Below are positions 10,546-23,381 of a DNA stretch of 35,514 nucleotides, piece by piece. Numbering within the stretch: the stretch's first letter is position 1; each line of letters starts with the position of its first letter. Below the pieces are notes generated by a model. The model was given only the letters and a program-made list of their open reading frames with translations, was not told the origin of the DNA and did not search any database. The translations under genes were made by a program, and so were the position numbers. The DNA comes from Thermoproteota archaeon (GTDB lineage Archaea; Korarchaeota; Korarchaeia; Korarchaeales; Korarchaeaceae): the NCBI GenBank assembly GCA_027491395.1, contig JAOZFI010000053.1, forward strand, positions 1-35,514. The letters are read 5' to 3'.

Positions 10546-12495
10546 GTGGTCCTGTTGATCCGTCGGATTGCTGTTTTAGGAGCTGGTACGATGGGGCATG
10601 GTATCGCACAGGTAGCTGCTATGGCTGGGTACGAGGTGGTAATGAGGGACATAAAGAAGGAGTTCGTTCAGAGCGGACTTAACAGGATAAGGGCTAGTTT
10701 GGAGAAGTTCGTTAAAAAAGGCAAGATGTCGGATGAAGAAATGAAAGAGGTGCTATCGAGAATAAGGACGACTCTTGATCTAGAAGATGCCGTTAGGGAT
10801 GCAGACTTCATTATAGAGGCCATTCCAGAGGTTTTCGACATAAAGGCCGATACGTTCAGGACGGTTGATAGGGTAGCGCCTCGCCATGCCGTGATAGCCA
10901 CAAACACGAGTAGTCTCCCCATAACCGAGCTGGCTTCAGTCACCTCTCGGCCTGATAAATTCGTTGGAATGCACTTCTTCAATCCTCCTCAGCTGATGAA
11001 GCTCGTAGAAGTGGTCAGGGGAGCGAAGACCTCCGATGAGACGGTCAACATCACGGTCGAGCTGGCGAAATCCATGGGTAAGGTGCCTGTAGTTGTGGCC
11101 AAGGATGTTCCGGGCTTCATCGTGAACAGGGTGCTGGTGAGATGGCTTAACGAGGCCTGCCTGATCATGGAGAGGGAAGGAGTGGATAAGCTCCTCATAG
11201 ATGCGGCACTCAAGGGCAAAGCCGGTCTCCCAATGGGGGCTTTCGAGCTATCAGATTTCATCGGTCTTGACGTGATGAGGGACATAATCGACGCGATGGT
11301 CCAGAGAGGCTTTATTCTCACCCCATGCAAGAGCTGGAAGGAGCTCCCCGAGGGTGGAAAGCTGGGCAGGAAGAGTGGCCAGGGCTTCTACGACTGGTCC
11401 TCAGGGAGACCCAACATACCCGCTGACCCCGATGCGCCCTTCGATCCATTGGAGGTCCTGAGCATGGCCATAAACGAGGCGGCATGGTTGGTAAGGAGCG
11501 GAGTAGCCTCAGCAGAGGATGTGGACAGGGCTGTTGTACTGGGGCTCAACTTTCCGAAGGGGCCCCTCAAGATGGCTGACGAGATAGGATTGGATAGAGT
11601 AAAGGCGGTGATAGAGGCTAAGAAGGAAAGGTGCGGCCTCCCGGAGTACGAGGTGGATCCTCTAATCACCGAGAAGGTGGGCAGGGGAGAGTTGGGGGTG
11701 AAGTCCGGCAGAGGTTTCTTCGATTACGGACTCAAGGAGAAGGAGTTTGGACCGGTCCTGTATCGGGAAACCCCACCGATAGCTTGGATCATCATTAACA
11801 GGCCGGATAAGCTCAACGCGATCAACATGGATGTCGTGGAGGGAATAATGTCGGCACTCGACGAAGCTGAGAGCGAGGCCATCAGGGTGGTGGTGATCAC
11901 CGGGGAGGGAAGGGCATTCAGCGCGGGAGCCGATGTGACCATGTTCAAGGAGCTAAAACCCATTGAGGCCTTTGAACTCTCAAAGAGACTTAATGAGGCC
12001 TTTAGAAGGATAAGAGAGTTCCGAAAACCTGTCATCGCCATGGTGAATGGTTTCGCATTGGGTGGGGGCTTGGAACTGGCGATGGCCTGCGATCTGAGGG
12101 TAGCAAGCGACAGGGCGCAGTTCGGACAACCAGAGATAACTTTGGGGATAATAACCGGGGCGGGTGGATCCTACAGGCTCCCTGAACTTGTAGGGAAAGC
12201 CAAAGCCAAGGAGCTTTTGTTAACCGGGGATCTCATAGGCGCTGATGAGGCCCTCAGGATAGGGCTGGTGAATAGAGTTACCCCTCACGATAAACTGGAG
12301 GAAGAAACTAGGTCACTGGCCATGAAGATAGCTGAGAGACCAGCGAAGGCCCTAGAGATATACAAGGCCCTCCTGAATGGCACCAAGTTGGATGTGGAGA
12401 CCTTGGCTTTTGGGCTGGTATTCGGGACTGAGGACTCCAAGGAGGGAATAAACGCCTTCTTAGAGAAGAGGAAGCCCGGGTTCAAGGGTAAATGA
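10546..12495 (+). CDS. bifunctional 3-hydroxyacyl-CoA dehydrogenase / enoyl-CoA hydratase
   Basis: The 649-aa fusion joins an NAD-dependent 3-hydroxyacyl-CoA dehydrogenase (residues 1 to about 390) to a crotonase-fold hydratase (about 398-649). It interconverts enoyl-CoA, (S)-3-hydroxyacyl-CoA and 3-oxoacyl-CoA. The dehydrogenase half has GAGTMG (12-17), the catalytic His in GMHFFNPP (H143), DVPGFIVNR, and a duplicated C-terminal helical domain. The hydratase half has the oxyanion motif around GRAFSAGADV and both catalytic glutamates, E510 (GLELAMACD) and E530 (GQPEITLG), 20 apart as in mammalian crotonase. The same domain order occurs in the crotonyl-CoA hydratase/3-hydroxybutyryl-CoA dehydrogenase of archaeal 4-hydroxybutyrate pathways and in beta-oxidation proteins; which applies here is unknown. 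The GTG at 10546 is the longest start; the TTG at 10555, behind GGGGTGGTCC, is likelier. Confidence 0.92.
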   Translation: MVLLIRRIAVLGAGTMGHGIAQVAAMAGYEVVMRDIKKEFVQSGLNRIRASLEKFVKKGKMSDEEMKEVLSRIRTTLDLEDAVRDADFIIEAIPEVFDIKADTFRTVDRVAPRHAVIATNTSSLPITELASVTSRPDKFVGMHFFNPPQLMKLVEVVRGAKTSDETVNITVELAKSMGKVPVVVAKDVPGFIVNRVLVRWLNEACLIMEREGVDKLLIDAALKGKAGLPMGAFELSDFIGLDVMRDIIDAMVQRGFILTPCKSWKELPEGGKLGRKSGQGFYDWSSGRPNIPADPDAPFDPLEVLSMAINEAAWLVRSGVASAEDVDRAVVLGLNFPKGPLKMADEIGLDRVKAVIEAKKERCGLPEYEVDPLITEKVGRGELGVKSGRGFFDYGLKEKEFGPVLYRETPPIAWIIINRPDKLNAINMDVVEGIMSALDEAESEAIRVVVITGEGRAFSAGADVTMFKELKPIEAFELSKRLNEAFRRIREFRKPVIAMVNGFALGGGLELAMACDLRVASDRAQFGQPEITLGIITGAGGSYRLPELVGKAKAKELLLTGDLIGADEALRIGLVNRVTPHDKLEEETRSLAMKIAERPAKALEIYKALLNGTKLDVETLAFGLVFGTEDSKEGINAFLEKRKPGFKGK

Positions 12496-12760: not shown

Positions 12761-13462
12761 TCACCTCAGAATGATCCTAGCGTCAACGACCTTTATCCCC
12801 TTCGGATATGCAATGACCGGATTTAAATCCATCTCAGCTATCTCCTCAATGTCAAGTCCCATCTGACCCACCTTTATGAGAGCATCTTTGAGGGCCTCCA
12901 GATCAACCGGTTCCATTCCCCTGAACCCGATAAGCAGCTTGTAGGCCTTGATCTCTTTAATCATGGAGTCCGCGTCGTATTCTGAGAGAGGAGCTACCCT
13001 GAAGGAGACATCCCTGTACACCTCGACGAATACACCGCCCAGTCCGAACATGACCGTGGGCCCGAACTGGGGATCCCTGATCAGACCTATTATCAACTCT
13101 AGGCCTTGGGGAGCGAACTCCTGAACGAGTATGCCAGTTATCCTCGCGTTAGGTACGTTGGCCTTCACGCTCCCCAGAATACCCCTGTAAGCATTTCTAA
13201 CTTCTTCCTCAGTTTTCAGGTTAACCTTAACCCCTCCGATGTCGCTCTTGTGGATGACATCTGGAGACACTATCTTCAAAACAACGGGAAATCCTATCTC
13301 TCTAGCGGCCTCGATAGCCTCATCCTCACTTCTAGCTAGGCGTATCTTGGTTACAGGTATTCCGTAACTAGCTATGAGCTCCTTGGCTTCATGCTCCAAG
13401 AGAACCTTCCTTCCCTCCTCCTTGGCCTTAGAAACGATCTCCTGAGGCTCCAATGAGATCAC
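12761..13462 (-). CDS. acdB: ADP-forming acyl-CoA synthetase, beta (ATP-grasp) subunit
   Basis: This 233-aa ATP-grasp protein is the beta subunit of ADP-forming acetyl/acyl-CoA synthetase, which conserves energy by turning acyl-CoA, ADP and phosphate into acid, CoA and ATP during amino-acid or sugar fermentation. Markers are the N-terminal LEHEAKELIASYGIPV, the strand FPVVLKIVSP, the HKSDIGGV loop, and the end EMDLNPVIAYPKGIKVVDARI. The size is that of the separate beta subunit. The alpha subunit with the catalytic His is not in the window. The GTG start is about 26 bp from the TATA-like TAAATAAA complement at 13484-13491, so it is probably leaderless. It lies close to the dehydrogenase/hydratase fusion, which suggests linked acyl-CoA metabolism. 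Confidence 0.9.
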   Translation of the reverse strand: MISLEPQEIVSKAKEEGRKVLLEHEAKELIASYGIPVTKIRLARSEDEAIEAAREIGFPVVLKIVSPDVIHKSDIGGVKVNLKTEEEVRNAYRGILGSVKANVPNARITGILVQEFAPQGLELIIGLIRDPQFGPTVMFGLGGVFVEVYRDVSFRVAPLSEYDADSMIKEIKAYKLLIGFRGMEPVDLEALKDALIKVGQMGLDIEEIAEMDLNPVIAYPKGIKVVDARIILR

Positions 13463-15246: not shown

Positions 15247-17466
15247 TTGCAGAAGTATAAGAAGGTTATAGAGCACCTACAGGGCCTTATGAAGGATCCC
15301 CGGAACATAAAGAACATAGGCATTATCGCGCACGTCGATCACGGCAAGACCACGCTCTCTGATAACTTGCTCTCGGCCGCTGGAATGATCAGTGACAAGA
15401 TGGCAGGTGAGATGCGAGCGCTAGACTATCACGAGATAGAGCAAGCTAGGGGTATAACTATAAAGGCAGCCAACATCTCTCTCTACTATCAGAAGGACGG
15501 CAGGGAGTACGCGATAAACTTGGTGGATACACCGGGCCACATAGACTTCACCGGTCATGTGACACGGTCCCTTAGGGTCATAGACGGCGCTATAGTCGTG
15601 GTAGATGCAGTGGAGGAGGTCATGGTCCAGACCGAGACCGTGACGAGACAGGCGCTGGAGGAGAGGGTGAGGCCACTTCTCTTCATAAACAAAGTGGACA
15701 GGCTCATAAAGGAGCTCAAGCTGACCCCTCAGGAGGTCCAGCAGAAGATTCTCAGGATAATTAGGGAGTTTAATAATCTGATTGAGGCATACGCCGAGCC
15801 CGAGTTCAGGGAAAAGTGGAAGGTAAGGTGGGACAACGACAGCGTGGCCTTCGGTTCCGCCCTTCATGGCTGGGGTCTCACAAACTCTATAGCCGCCAAG
15901 AAGGGGGTCAAGTTCTCCGATATAATAGACTCTTACGCTGAGGATCCGGATGGAGTCATCCTGAGAAAGGAACTACCGGTCCACGAGGCTCTCCTAGACA
16001 TGGTAACCCTACACGTTCCGAGTCCCACTGAGGCCCAGCCCTACAGGATAGACAGGCTGTGGAAGGATCAGCATGACGAGGAGATAGTCAGCGCCCTGAA
16101 GTCGTGTGACCCCAACGGTCCCCTCATCGTTGGAGTCAATGCCGTCAGGGTGGATCCCCATGCAGGTGTGGTCGTTACTGGAAGGGTCTTCAGCGGTACT
16201 CTCAGAGAAGGAGAGGAGGTTTACCTGCTCAACGCGAAGAAGAAACAGAAAATCCAGCAGACAAGCATCTACATGGGCCCATACAGGCTCAGAATGGAGG
16301 AGATTCCAGCTGGTAACATAGCGGCTGTCCTAGGACTCACCTCGGCTAGCTCGGGAGAGACCGTGATATCTCCTGAGATAAAGGAGAGGGTACAGCAGGG
16401 GTTCGAGGCCATAAGGTACGTGACCGAGCCCGTGGTTACCGTGGCAGTTGAGGCCAAGAACCCGCAGGACCTCCCCAAGCTCATAGACACCCTGAGAAAG
16501 CTCACACTCCAAGATCCTAACTTGGTGATGATTCACAATCAGGAGACGGGAGAGATCCTCCTAAAAGGAACCGGAGAGCTTCACCTCGAGATATCCCTTT
16601 ACGAGGTTAAGAAATCCGGGCTGGAATTCGAGGTCAGCGAACCCACCGTGGTCTACAGGGAGAGCGTCAAGGGACAGAGTGATGTCGTGCTGGCCAAGTC
16701 TCCCAACAAGCTGAACAGGCTCTGGGTCACCGCTTCACCCCTCGACGAGAAAGTAGTTAACCTCATCCGCGAGAGGAAGGTCAACGAGAGAATGGACAGC
16801 AGGAGCGTGGCCAAGATACTCAGGGAAGAGGGAGGAATGGAAACTGACGATGCTAGGAATATCTGGAAGATAGACGAGGAGAACTACAACCTCTTCATAA
16901 ACAGGACAGTAGGGGTGCAGAGGCTGGACGAGGTCAGGGAGATCTTAAAGCAGGGCTTCATGTGGGTCATGAGAGAGGGGCCTCTAGCTGGAGAGCCCGT
17001 GATGGGCGTGGCCATAAGGCTGGTCAACGCCATGATACACGAAGACCCAGCCCACAGGGGTCCGGCACAGCTCACCCCTGCCATAAGGAGGGCCATATTC
17101 GGTGCCATGCTGAGCGCCGATCCAGTGTTACTCGAACCGATCTATGAGATACAAGTCTCCACACCACCCGAACTGATAGGGTCGGTGATATCTCTCATAT
17201 CCCAAAAGAGGGGCAAGGTAATTGGAGTGGAGGAAAGAGGTAGGGTAAGCGTTGTGAAAGGCTATATACCGGTCAGGGAGACTCTTGGAGGCTTCAGCAA
17301 CGAGATGAGGAGCGTCACCAGCGGTAGAGCCTTCTGGCAGACCAAGTTCTCTCACTGGGAGCCCTTACCCAAGAGCCTGATGGAGCAGGTCATCTTGGAG
17401 ATAAGGAGAAGGAAGGGCATGAAAGAGGAGATACCTAAAGCGGAGGAGTACATGGATACCCTCTAA
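15247..17466 (+). CDS. fusA: translation elongation factor 2
   Basis: Archaeal EF-2, the GTPase that moves tRNA and mRNA through the ribosome after each peptide bond. The 739-aa protein has all five domains. G1 is AHVDHGKTT (28-36), the switch-2 motif DTPGH is near 94-98, and NKVD is near 148. Domain III-V motifs GTGELHLE and the C-terminal GGFSNEMRSVTSGRA are intact. The domain IV tip, which normally reads DAIHRGPAQ in archaea and carries the diphthamide His, reads DPAHRGPAQ: the His (about residue 603) stays but the two residues before it differ. This suggests loss of the diphthamide modification, as reported for Korarchaeota. The TTG start is set by AGGTGAT. It appears to be a single-gene transcript. 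Confidence 0.97.
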   Translation: MQKYKKVIEHLQGLMKDPRNIKNIGIIAHVDHGKTTLSDNLLSAAGMISDKMAGEMRALDYHEIEQARGITIKAANISLYYQKDGREYAINLVDTPGHIDFTGHVTRSLRVIDGAIVVVDAVEEVMVQTETVTRQALEERVRPLLFINKVDRLIKELKLTPQEVQQKILRIIREFNNLIEAYAEPEFREKWKVRWDNDSVAFGSALHGWGLTNSIAAKKGVKFSDIIDSYAEDPDGVILRKELPVHEALLDMVTLHVPSPTEAQPYRIDRLWKDQHDEEIVSALKSCDPNGPLIVGVNAVRVDPHAGVVVTGRVFSGTLREGEEVYLLNAKKKQKIQQTSIYMGPYRLRMEEIPAGNIAAVLGLTSASSGETVISPEIKERVQQGFEAIRYVTEPVVTVAVEAKNPQDLPKLIDTLRKLTLQDPNLVMIHNQETGEILLKGTGELHLEISLYEVKKSGLEFEVSEPTVVYRESVKGQSDVVLAKSPNKLNRLWVTASPLDEKVVNLIRERKVNERMDSRSVAKILREEGGMETDDARNIWKIDEENYNLFINRTVGVQRLDEVREILKQGFMWVMREGPLAGEPVMGVAIRLVNAMIHEDPAHRGPAQLTPAIRRAIFGAMLSADPVLLEPIYEIQVSTPPELIGSVISLISQKRGKVIGVEERGRVSVVKGYIPVRETLGGFSNEMRSVTSGRAFWQTKFSHWEPLPKSLMEQVILEIRRRKGMKEEIPKAEEYMDTL

Positions 17467-18867: not shown

Positions 18868-19389
18868 ATGTCCCTTAGACCGGCGAGGAACTATAGGGCG
18901 CTGCAGAGGCCCTACACTCGGAAGGAGTACATAAAGAGCATACCCTACAGCAAGATCAACAAGTTCGATCACGGCAATGTGCACGGGGATTTCGACTACG
19001 AGGTGAGGCTCGTAGCGGATGCTAGCTTCCAGGTCAGAAGCAACGCTCTAGAGGCCGCGAGGATGACCATCTTAGCCCAGCTCAGGAAGAGGACCCCATC
19101 GGACGAGTATTACTTCTTCAAGATAGTCCCCTATCCCCATCACATACTCAGGAAGCACGCAATGGCCGGTGTCCACAAGGCGGAGAGGCTTCAGAAGGGT
19201 ATGAGGCTGGCTTTCGGTAAGCCCGACGGCAGAGCGGCTCAGATAAGGAGGGGAGACACCATTCTGTTCATAAGGGTAAAGGAGGAGCACCTAGACGTGG
19301 CCAAGTACTGCGTCAAGCTGGCGAAGCTCAAGATCCCCCACATGACCAAGGTGGAAGTGGTCAAGCTAGATGGAAAGGCCGAGGGATAA
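18868..19389 (+). CDS. rpl10e: 50S ribosomal protein L10e (uL16)
   Basis: The large-subunit protein uL16, called L10e in archaea, sits near the A-site and peptidyl transferase centre. At 173 aa it has the usual length. Recognisable parts are the N-terminal RPARNYRALQRPYTRKEYI, the PYPHHILRKHAMAG loop, and GMRLAFGKPDGRAAQIRRG. The start ATG is preceded by AGGTGAGG. The 3' end overlaps the methylase gene by 20 bp. Position in an operon with trmJ, a METTL5-like methylase, csl4 and rpoL suggests growth-linked co-expression. Confidence 0.97.
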   Translation: MSLRPARNYRALQRPYTRKEYIKSIPYSKINKFDHGNVHGDFDYEVRLVADASFQVRSNALEAARMTILAQLRKRTPSDEYYFFKIVPYPHHILRKHAMAGVHKAERLQKGMRLAFGKPDGRAAQIRRGDTILFIRVKEEHLDVAKYCVKLAKLKIPHMTKVEVVKLDGKAEG

Positions 19390-19990
19390 GAAGGAGCTGG
19401 AGATAGTCCTTCAGGGGCTCAAAGACCTGAAAAACCCCAAGCCGGAGCTGGAACAACACTCCACTCCTCCGAACCTCGCCTCCTCTTTGATCCATTTGGC
19501 ATACCTCATGGGCGATTTGGAGGGATCGAGGGTCGCGGATCTCGGGTGCGGTAACGGAATCTTGGCGATAGGCTCGGTCCTGTATGGAGCATCCTATGCT
19601 ATAGGCGTGGACATAGACCCGGAGGCGGTGGAGGTAGCTAAGGAGAACGCTGGAGCGGTAGGGATTTCGGATAGGACCAAGTTCGTGGTGATGGATGTCT
19701 CAAACTTCGAGGAGAGGGTGGATGTGGTGATACAGAATCCCCCTTTCGGGGTAGTGCGCAGGCACGCGGACCTTAAGTTTTTGGATAAGGCACTCCGGAT
19801 TTCCGGGGTGGTTTACTCCATACACATGGCTGGGAACTCTAGGTTCCTAGCCGAGTACGCCTCTAAGAGGGGAGCTAGGCTGACTCACGTCGAGGGATGG
19901 CCCTTCCCCCTCAGGAGGATCTTCTACTACCACAGGAGGAGGGTTGTCAGCATACCCGTGGAGATGTTGAGGTTCGAGGTGATATCATGA
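19370..19990 (+). CDS. METTL5-like N6-adenine RNA methyltransferase
   Basis: A 206-aa class I SAM-dependent methylase. The N-terminal LEQHSTPPNLAS segment matches the family's LEQY-x-T block. SAM motif I is VADLGCGNGILA (55-66), an acidic motif GVDIDPEAVE follows, and the catalytic NPPFG is at 123-127. NPPF/NPPY marks N6-adenine or exocyclic amine methylation, and in eukaryotes METTL5 modifies 18S rRNA A1832. The archaeal target is likely the equivalent 16S rRNA adenine, an inference. The gene begins inside the L10e gene (20-bp overlap) and its TGA stop overlaps the csl4 ATG by four bases. Confidence 0.87.
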   Translation: MERPRDKKELEIVLQGLKDLKNPKPELEQHSTPPNLASSLIHLAYLMGDLEGSRVADLGCGNGILAIGSVLYGASYAIGVDIDPEAVEVAKENAGAVGISDRTKFVVMDVSNFEERVDVVIQNPPFGVVRRHADLKFLDKALRISGVVYSIHMAGNSRFLAEYASKRGARLTHVEGWPFPLRRIFYYHRRRVVSIPVEMLRFEVIS

Positions 19991-20565
19991 GGGAAAGAAG
20001 GATCGTGGTTCCCGGAGAGAGGTTGGGAGTTGTTGAGGAATTTATACCCGGAGAGGGGGTCAGGGAGGAAAGGGGCACCCTTTACTCAGTTTACTTGGGC
20101 TCCCTGCATGAGAAAGACATTAATGTGTCCGTGAGACCCTTTAAGAAACCTATACTTCCCCTCAGACCTGGGGAGATAGCTTTAGGCGAGATAAGAAATG
20201 CTGACAGGAGCGTCTACCATGTCCATCTCACCGCCCTCGTGAAGCCGAGAAGGGCGCTGCTCTCCCCTCCCGTCCAAGCGGTGATGTCCAAGAGACCTCC
20301 TAACTTGGGAGCTAGGCCCAGCGACATCGTTCTCGTTAGAATAAACTCAGTTGATAACGGCACGGTCACTGTTACGATGGGAGGGCCGCCCGACTTGGGC
20401 GTCATACTGAGCTTCTGTCCCACCTGCGGTGCTCCCTTGAGGAAGGGTGTGGGGTACACCTTGGTGTGCGAGAGATGTGGTAAGGTATATTTAGACAAGA
20501 AGATCAGTAGCAGATACGGGTGGAACCCCTTTAAGGAAGGGCTGATAAGATATGCCAAGAGGTAG
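19987..20565 (+). CDS. csl4: exosome RNA-binding subunit Csl4
   Basis: Csl4 is one of the RNA-binding cap proteins of the archaeal exosome, which degrades and trims RNA 3' ends; it also links the exosome to DnaG. The protein is 192 aa: an N-terminal domain starting VVPGERLGVVEEFIPGEG, an S1 domain (about 62-132), and a zinc ribbon with C144, C147, C161 and C164. The frame is open upstream to 19897, but the ATG at 19987 has GAGGTGAT four bases before it and makes the usual ATGA overlap with the methylase gene. The next gene overlaps its end by 14 bp. Confidence 0.93.
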   Translation: MRERRIVVPGERLGVVEEFIPGEGVREERGTLYSVYLGSLHEKDINVSVRPFKKPILPLRPGEIALGEIRNADRSVYHVHLTALVKPRRALLSPPVQAVMSKRPPNLGARPSDIVLVRINSVDNGTVTVTMGGPPDLGVILSFCPTCGAPLRKGVGYTLVCERCGKVYLDKKISSRYGWNPFKEGLIRYAKR

Positions 20566-21199
20566 CCTCTTAGACAAGAGGAGTTTTGTGCTCTCGCTCT
20601 CTCACGACGAGCTGGAAGATTTCCTTGAGTATCTGGAGAGGAGGATGGAAGGCAGGGATTACTCCTACAAGTATGTGACTGGCTCTGGGCTGAAGATAAC
20701 CCTCTTCGGCACTAGGGAGGAGAACAAGGTAGCGGAGAGCGTGGTGAGACGATCTTACAGGAACTTCAAGATAGTGAGGAATCCCGTTGGGGGGCTCTAC
20801 AGGTATCCGTCGGAGTGGTTGATGGAGCACGGTGGAGGCGTTTCAATGAGCCTCCTGACTCTCTCACTGAAGGGAGCCGGCCTCACTGCCAACTGGAAGA
20901 AGGACCTCCTCTACACGGAGCTGGAGCCTGAGGAGATGGTGGATCTTATGTCCGAACTAAGGACTCTAGTTAACGAGATAAAGTATGAGGTAAGGCAGAG
21001 GAAGGCCAGAGAGGTGGTGGTAGCAGCTGCTGTCAACGCAGGCGTATCCCCAATCGAGGCACTGGAGTTAGCTGAGGAGGAGGGCCTGCTCGAGAGGGAT
21101 GAGAGGGGGATGTGGTGGTTCAGGGCAGATCCCGAGCTCGTGATGGATACCCTGATAAGGAAGCTGTCGGAGATGGAGGTAGATGAGAATGGATGTTGA
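20552..21199 (+). CDS. DUF2067-like archaeal protein
   Basis: A 215-aa soluble protein resembling the DUF2067 family of unknown function. The layout is an N-terminal alpha/beta domain (SFVLSLSHDELEDFLEYLE, then GLKITLFGTREE), a NPVGGLYRYP turn, a helical middle with SLLTLSLKGAGLTANW, and a C-terminal helical domain with SPIEALELAEEEGLLER and a final helix. There are no catalytic motifs or Cys pairs. Overlap with csl4 (14 bp) and rpoL (17 bp at most) indicates tight co-translation. Its position between exosome and polymerase genes suggests a part in RNA metabolism, inferred from context alone. Confidence 0.65.
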   Translation: MPRGSLLDKRSFVLSLSHDELEDFLEYLERRMEGRDYSYKYVTGSGLKITLFGTREENKVAESVVRRSYRNFKIVRNPVGGLYRYPSEWLMEHGGGVSMSLLTLSLKGAGLTANWKKDLLYTELEPEEMVDLMSELRTLVNEIKYEVRQRKAREVVVAAAVNAGVSPIEALELAEEEGLLERDERGMWWFRADPELVMDTLIRKLSEMEVDENGC

Positions 21200-21485
21200 G
21201 GTGAAGGAGGTCGGGCCCAGTGAGATAAGGGTCGTGATCAGGGGTGAGACATACACCCTCCTGACCCCCATAGTTGAGGAGCTTAACGCTCGAGATGATG
21301 TGGAGTTCGCCGGTTATGATGTCCCCCATCCACTTAAGGAGGAGGGAATCATATTTCTGAGGGTCAGGGATGGTCTGGATCCTAGGAAGATCCTGAGAGA
21401 GACCGTAGAGAAGCTCATAAAAGAATATGAGGGCTTAGAAAAGAGCTTCAGGGAGGAACTAGAGAGGATAGCTACCGAAACATGA
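21189..21485 (+). CDS. rpoL: DNA-directed RNA polymerase subunit L
   Basis: RpoL is the archaeal homologue of Rpb11 and part of the alpha-like dimer with RpoD that nucleates RNA polymerase assembly. The protein is about 98 aa. Diagnostic elements are the early strands VEVKEVGPSEIRVVIRGE, LTPIVEELNARDDVEFAGYDVPHPL, and the long C-terminal helix following RKILRETVEKLIKEY. The frame has an ATG at 21183 and one at 21189; GGAGGT at 21176-21181 is too close to the first, so 21189 is preferred. It is the last gene of the operon. Its 3' end overlaps the convergent peptidase gene by 14 bp. Confidence 0.94.
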   Translation: MDVEVKEVGPSEIRVVIRGETYTLLTPIVEELNARDDVEFAGYDVPHPLKEEGIIFLRVRDGLDPRKILRETVEKLIKEYEGLEKSFREELERIATET

Positions 21486-22692: not shown

Positions 22693-22797
22693 GGTATCAC
22701 TCAGGAGTCTCGGGGTCGAATAACTTAACCGCGCCGGGTGGATCTCCCATTCCCACGAGCCGCAAACTTATTGAATTTTTCATGCACTGAATACACG

Positions 22798-23037
22798 ATG
22801 CCTAAGACCATAACCCTATCAGATGACGTATACAAGGAGTTGCTCAGGATAAAGGGGAAGAGGTCATTCTCAGAGGTCATAAGGGACCTCTTAAAAGAAA
22901 GGAGAGGTAACTCTCATGTATTGCTCATGCTATTCAGCACGATGAGTAAAGAGAGATATAAGGAAATGAAGAGAGCTGTGGAAGAGTTAGAGGAGGAGTT
23001 CGAGAGATGGGGGCAGTCCTTGACACGAACATCGTGA
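22798..23037 (+). CDS. vapB: VapB-type antitoxin (DUF217-like)
   Basis: A 79-aa antitoxin of the archaeal VapB/DUF217 kind. The N-terminal KTITLSDDVYKELLRIKG is the DNA-binding strand and helix, followed by SFSEVIRDLLKERRG and an acidic C-terminal helix that would clamp the toxin. The frame extends upstream to 22738, but the ATG at 22798 matches the family start. A TATA-like stretch (AAACTTATTGAA, 22764-22775) lies about 28 bp ahead. It overlaps the vapC gene by 31 bp, the usual layout in which antitoxin precedes toxin and both autoregulate. Confidence 0.9.
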   Translation: MPKTITLSDDVYKELLRIKGKRSFSEVIRDLLKERRGNSHVLLMLFSTMSKERYKEMKRAVEELEEEFERWGQSLTRTS

Positions 23038-23381
23038 TAGAAATAGCAGCGGGAAATAAGGAGGTCCTAGATAAGGTTCTATCCATAGATATTGAGTTCT
23101 ACCTGACTACCATCAGCAGATTCGAGTTGTTTTCCGGAAATCTGACCGATAGGGAGAAGTTCTGGATAGATCAGTTGATAAGTCTTCCCCTCGACGATGA
23201 TTCCTCCGAGTTGGCGGCCATGCTATTCAAGTCCCTAAAGAAGGAGGGAAGGACTGTATCTCTGAGGGATCTCTTCATAGGAGCCATATGCATGTCCAAC
23301 GGGCTTCCTCTGATAACGTTGAATACAGACTTCCTAGCCCTTCAGTATCACGGTCTTGAACTCCACCTGCTCAGGGATTAG
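23007..23381 (+). CDS. vapC: VapC toxin, PIN-domain ribonuclease
   Basis: A 124-aa PIN-domain endoribonuclease, the toxin partner of VapB, which typically cuts tRNA or rRNA. The four acidic positions are present: D6 (VLDTN), E40 (SRFELF), D88 (LRDLFIGA) and D108 (TLNTDFL). The length is normal. Its start lies 31 bp inside vapB, implying coupled translation. The module appears intact, unlike the two MNT/HEPN loci further right. The convergent ABC ATPase gene overlaps the last 4 bp. Confidence 0.92.
   Translation: MGAVLDTNIVIEIAAGNKEVLDKVLSIDIEFYLTTISRFELFSGNLTDREKFWIDQLISLPLDDDSSELAAMLFKSLKKEGRTVSLRDLFIGAICMSNGLPLITLNTDFLALQYHGLELHLLRD

Follow-up and report, generated by a model that had tools for sequence, protein, structure and literature searches.

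Genes of the EF-2 locus

The window, a stretch of 35,514 nucleotides of korarchaeal DNA analysed here as a whole, carries the gene for elongation factor 2 (EF-2) and, downstream of it, genes for ribosomal protein L10e, a methyltransferase, the exosome subunit Csl4 and RNA polymerase subunit L. Table 1 gives an overview of these genes and of the positions in EF-2 that are discussed below. In a profile search the EF-2 product matched the model TIGR00490 over residues 5–728 with 883 bits (equivalog cut-off 738.45) and thus represents a bona fide archaeal EF-2. Only one full-length EF-2 (matches at E ≤ 1e-60) was found in the genome carrying the window, which is assembled in 62 contigs.

Table 1 Features of the EF-2 gene and of the region downstream of it (positions in the window)
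Feature	Position	Strand	Evidence or remark
Elongation factor 2 (aEF-2), 739 aa	15247..17466	+	TIGR00490, 883 bits
Leu489 (SPNKLNR), position of yeast eEF2 His583	16711..16713	+	The 98 other canonical archaeal EF-2s all have His
Asn594, near the loop; also a family-specific change, though less exclusive	17026..17028	+	Asp in 92/98 canonical EF-2s
Diphthamide loop HEDPAHRGPAQ (aa 598–608), ordinary sequence	17038..17070	+	Also in S. acidocaldarius, f28 and f62
His603, diphthamide acceptor in dph-positive organisms, here predicted unmodified	17053..17055	+	
Ribosomal protein L10e/uL16; located left of dph2 in dph-positive relatives	18868..19389	+	PF00252; 40% identity to G027 orthologue
MTS/PrmA-like methyltransferase; located right of dph2 in dph-positive relatives	19370..19990	+	39% identity to G027 orthologue
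Empty dph2 site: 20-nt overlap of L10e and methyltransferase genes	19370..19389	+	
Exosome subunit Csl4	19897..20565	+	NF034126, 97.9 bits; true start probably downstream of 19897
RNA polymerase subunit L (RpoL/Rpb11), closing the conserved block	21183..21485	+	PF13656

The acceptor-His pattern H-x-D-x-x-H-R-G is present in the window EF-2 as HEDPAHRG (residues 598–605), and the reading of the tip as DPAHRGPAQ with a retained acceptor His, given in a preliminary description of this DNA, is confirmed. His603 is found in all 23 members of the family Korarchaeaceae, with both His codons in use, and the whole HEDPAHRGPAQ segment is likewise invariant (23/23).

Elsewhere in the window, a gene for a VapB-type antitoxin is followed by one for a PIN-domain protein (VapBC-like pair, 22738–23381), and a gene for a fused 3-hydroxyacyl-CoA dehydrogenase and enoyl-CoA hydratase (10546–12495) is accompanied by part of an ADP-forming acyl-CoA ligase (12761–13462).

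Diphthamide synthesis genes and the empty dph2 site

Diphthamide is an almost universal modification of EF-2, and it is apparently missing in the translation motor of this archaeon. Profile models for Dph2 (PF01866), Dph5 (TIGR00522) and Dph6 (PF01902), all of which matched in four control archaea, gave no match (0/3) in the genome carrying the window, which is 98.4% complete; none of the three proteins that would go with a diphthamide-modified EF-2 is encoded there. Among the 26 genomes of the class, Dph2 was found by profile search in none (0/26) and Dph5 above the cut-off in none (0/26), and no confirmed Dph2, Dph5 or Dph6 is present in any of them. The preliminary description had seen in this DNA support for a korarchaeal lineage, reported to lack diphthamide synthesis genes, and had proposed a genome-wide search for a dph set. 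The lineage, in a class that includes Methanodesulfokora, and the lack of the synthesis genes are both supported here.

As such, absence of the pathway is already known in this lineage. In the parts of their paper considered here, de Crecy-Lagard et al. (2012; PMC3541065) describe K. cryptofilum as lacking the pathway and yet keeping His603. Strain OPF8 belongs to the same class as the window genome, probably to the same genus; like the window genome it is without Dph2, Dph5 and DUF71, and its acceptor His bears the same residue number (PMC3541065, same parts).

A single strong DUF71 match was obtained in the class, for a protein of a Methanodesulfokora genome (L063, G023:C123) encoded in a cluster for cobalamin transport and synthesis, resembling the DUF71-B12 subgroup described in the same parts of PMC3541065. 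With 154 bits it stays below the Dph6 equivalog cut-off of 197, and its neighbours encode a periplasmic binding protein, a FecCD-type transporter and CobS; we therefore rejected it as a real Dph6. A weak Dph5 match in the same genome was rejected as well, as it corresponds to a tetrapyrrole methylase (PF00590, 202 bits), and a similar weak match in G021 also lies below the cut-off. Weak DUF71 matches in four further genomes (G007, G011, G015 and G016; 19–25 bits over about 115 residues of frames of 323–346 aa) presumably represent other PP-loop proteins.

The only other genomes of the phylum available for comparison (G026, G027, G028) belong to another class and encode Dph2, Dph5 and Dph6; all three matches exceed the cut-offs, and that of Dph2 also exceeds the one set for the archaeal equivalog. 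An EF-2 phylogeny, also proposed in the preliminary description, places the EF-2s of these genomes as sister to those of the family (SH-aLRT 97). According to this tree and to the presence of the dph genes in the sister class, the pathway loss maps to the stem of that class to which the window belongs.

The three dph-positive genomes share the gene order L10e-dph2-MTS-type methyltransferase-Csl4-RpoL. In the window L10e is followed by the overlapping methyltransferase gene and then by Csl4, DUF2067 and RpoL. The short overlap indicates that dph2 is cleanly gone, and tblastn with the three Dph2 proteins as queries found no Dph2 in the window. The EF-2 gene ends about 1.9 kb upstream of this empty site. 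Other korarchaeal loci that are readable across the junction have the same order as the window; the order is L10e-methyltransferase-Csl4 in G001 and L10e-Csl4 in G002. The dph-positive sister-class genomes with dph2 between L10e and the methyltransferase gene, and the empty site in the window, are new here.

From the absence of the genes, His603 would be unmodified in the cell. An unmodified EF-2 had also been proposed in the preliminary description, and this part of the proposal is supported by the gene content, but not by the DPAH loop that was taken as its sign (see below). Modification of His603 by an unknown, non-homologous enzyme would explain why this residue and its loop are so strictly kept in all 23 family members after the pathway was lost, and a methyltransferase gene lies nearby. 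However, the same methyltransferase gene adjoins dph2 in the dph-positive relatives and is thus not a replacement enzyme, and we consider such a modification improbable.

The two loops at the tip of domain IV

For comparison of the diphthamide loop (loop 2), the EF-2s of 150 genomes distributed over the Archaea were aligned. Those with the pattern H-x-D-x-x-H-R-G were regarded as canonical, which applies to 98 proteins outside the family Korarchaeaceae. The residues just ahead of the acceptor His vary freely among them: exact DAIH occurs in 36/98, Pro at position −2 from the acceptor His in 15/98, and the identical HEDPAHRGPAQ in two (families f28 and f62). A full-length alignment with the EF-2 of PDB entry 8hl1, which we take to be that of Sulfolobus acidocaldarius, revealed a loop identical to that of the window EF-2, and the S. 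acidocaldarius genome, one of the controls, matches the Dph2, Dph5 and Dph6 models. The three dph-positive genomes of the same phylum are among the 15 with Pro and carry DPVH. Pro at this place is therefore independent of pathway loss and says nothing on modification.

Loop 2 of the window EF-2 thus lies within the range of dph-positive archaea, and the view of the preliminary description, that the loop is altered and divergent and marks the missing modification, is not supported. That DPAH itself is an adaptation to missing diphthamide, as this view implies, would fit its presence in all 23 family members, but with the identical loop in dph-positive S. acidocaldarius and in f28 and f62, and Pro already at the equivalent place in the sister class, we regard this as very improbable. 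On the same grounds we rejected DPAH as an indicator of the lineage or of an absent modification. As far as the aligned proteins tell, DPAH is an ordinary archaeal loop variant, unrelated to diphthamide loss.

A different position stands out in the other loop of domain IV (loop 1). An alignment scan identified thirteen positions at which the family is uniform but deviates from other EF-2s. Among the 63 columns that are invariant in all 98 canonical EF-2s, a single one is replaced throughout the family, namely residue 489, which is His in 98/98 canonical proteins and Leu in 23/23 family genomes; it is still the sole replaced column when conservation is relaxed to 98% (84 columns). The S. acidocaldarius protein reads SPNKHNK here, with His where the window EF-2 has Leu489. 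The Leu codons in the 23 genomes are CTG (12), CTC (6), CTA (3) and TTG (2), and the EF-2s of the family diverge down to 67% identity. Four synonymous codons in proteins of such divergence argue that Leu489 is kept by selection.

Residue 489 aligns with His583 of yeast eEF2 (fragment ALSKSPNKHNR, starting at 575), the correspondence of residues being based on the alignment and on published yeast structures. In yeast, His583, His694 and diphthamide-699 form the histidine-diphthamide triad (PMC4896748), and diphthamide, with help of His583 and Asp696, contacts the minor groove of the codon-anticodon duplex (PMC8674143). His583 stacks on Pro580 and thereby shapes the loop (PMC4861600), and the nearby substitutions Pro580His, His694Asn and Ile698Ala lead to −1 frameshifts (PMC6193676). 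In place of the triad His583/His694/His699 (yeast numbering), the window EF-2 has Leu489/His598/His603; the tip residues Pro486, Lys488, His598, Asp600 and His603 are kept, and the equivalent of His583 alone is replaced. Judged from these alignments, the tip has its fixed change at residue 489 (His to Leu), in the loop that is the partner of diphthamide, and not in DPAH. This exchange, the unique replaced column among the 63 invariant ones, is newly observed here.

Alternatively, His489Leu may be a neutral or unrelated change specific to the lineage, which arose by chance on the branch of the dph loss. Since one and the same stem branch carries both the exchange and the pathway loss, the two amount to a single event in the phylum, and their association may be coincidence; moreover, about a dozen further family-specific residues occur elsewhere in EF-2. 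On the other hand, no other column of comparable conservation is replaced, residue 489 sits in the diphthamide triad, and Leu is retained there through four codons. As a rough guide to chance, the unmodified partners of the triad make up 2 of the 63 invariant columns, so that a single random replacement would land on one of them in about 3% of cases. We regard a neutral change as a serious alternative, though not the favoured one.

The account of K. cryptofilum in PMC3541065, in the parts considered, describes neither the His to Leu exchange in loop 1 nor the empty dph2 site nor dph-positive relatives in the phylum, all of which were found here.

Possible routes to EF-2 function without diphthamide

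We favour, with a probability of about 0.75, a joint reading in which the window gene is a normal, vertically inherited korarchaeal EF-2 and dph2, dph5 and dph6 were all lost after the class had split from its dph-positive sister class. His603 is predicted from gene content to work as a plain histidine in an ordinary DPAH loop, and in the neighbouring loop of domain IV the equivalent of yeast His583, which aids diphthamide at the codon-anticodon duplex, would have been replaced by Leu and held by selection. Even unmodified, the tip (Lys488, His598, Asp600, His603) most likely reaches into the decoding centre and drives movement of the tRNA-mRNA duplex. We infer that Leu489 is an accommodation to missing diphthamide: the exchange may either have re-tuned the packing of the loop against Pro486, or have become permissible once the modified member of the triad was gone.

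More tentatively, the exchange of one specific partner-loop residue (His583 for Leu, yeast numbering) could have accommodated the loss in Korarchaeaceae so that the frame is kept without the modification, while deeper korarchaeal lineages took other routes, with degenerate tips or with an EF-2 type common to distant archaeal families. This seems quite possible, if somewhat doubtful. The degenerate-loop EF-2s of f15, f42 and f57 keep His at position 489, which suggests that not every non-canonical EF-2 would need to lose this His.

These findings bear on the question why archaea and eukaryotes retain, at considerable cost, a modification of a single EF-2 His that takes several enzymes, and on how a lineage manages without it. 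Korarchaeaceae offer a minimal, testable case: EF-2 is single and vertically inherited, its acceptor loop is intact, dph2 is cleanly deleted, and the phylum contains dph-positive sisters. The single replaced universal residue lies at the contact partner of diphthamide and leads to a hypothesis on how His583Leu acts in the presence and in the absence of diphthamide.

Some archaea without dph genes carry a second EF-2 paralogue that lacks key residues (Narrowe et al. 2018, as cited in the part of PMC10307638 considered here). Diphthamide synthesis is lost in these archaea as in the window genome, but the latter has no second EF-2 without loop residues, and its one EF-2 has an intact loop 2. Within the class, two EF-2s were found only in the deep member G001 (L040, G001:C61, and L043, G001:C14), one without loop 2 and the other with HTDPAHTGYSE and Leu489. 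This pair fits the pattern reported in that part of PMC10307638. The HTDPAHTGYSE copy groups with the distant families f15, f42, f57 and f65 (clade support 100) and shares 56–64% identity with their EF-2s vs. 42% with that of G027 from its own phylum. This placement suggests transfer or deep paralogy, and horizontal spread of a diphthamide-independent EF-2 is possible. The only EF-2 found in G002 (66% complete; L041, G002:C6) has the degenerate loop 2 SPNPKLRGYQQ without acceptor His, and Ala at position 489. Because of long branches, the tree placement of this protein and of the second G001 copy has to be viewed with caution.

Outside the phylum, an independent His to Leu exchange at the position of yeast His583 occurs in L167 (G050:C134:6233–8347), with HVDPSHRSPGQ as loop 2; no dph gene was seen in the 611 kb covered, of about 1.5 Mb of this genome, but the control genes for L10e, Csl4, SRP54 and GPN were not found in this part either. 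An EF-2 fragment at a contig end (L163, G144:C74:5295–7097) reads HEDAINRG, with Asn for the acceptor His, possibly due to an assembly error. In G059:C1, G099:C86 and G119:C25, EF-2 lies in frames of 1105–1390 aa with the model match starting from residue 32, which may reflect an intein or another insertion near the P-loop. Finally, the EF-2 frame at G121:C14:1764–3923 is interrupted by a single TAG, which may be a recoded stop codon.
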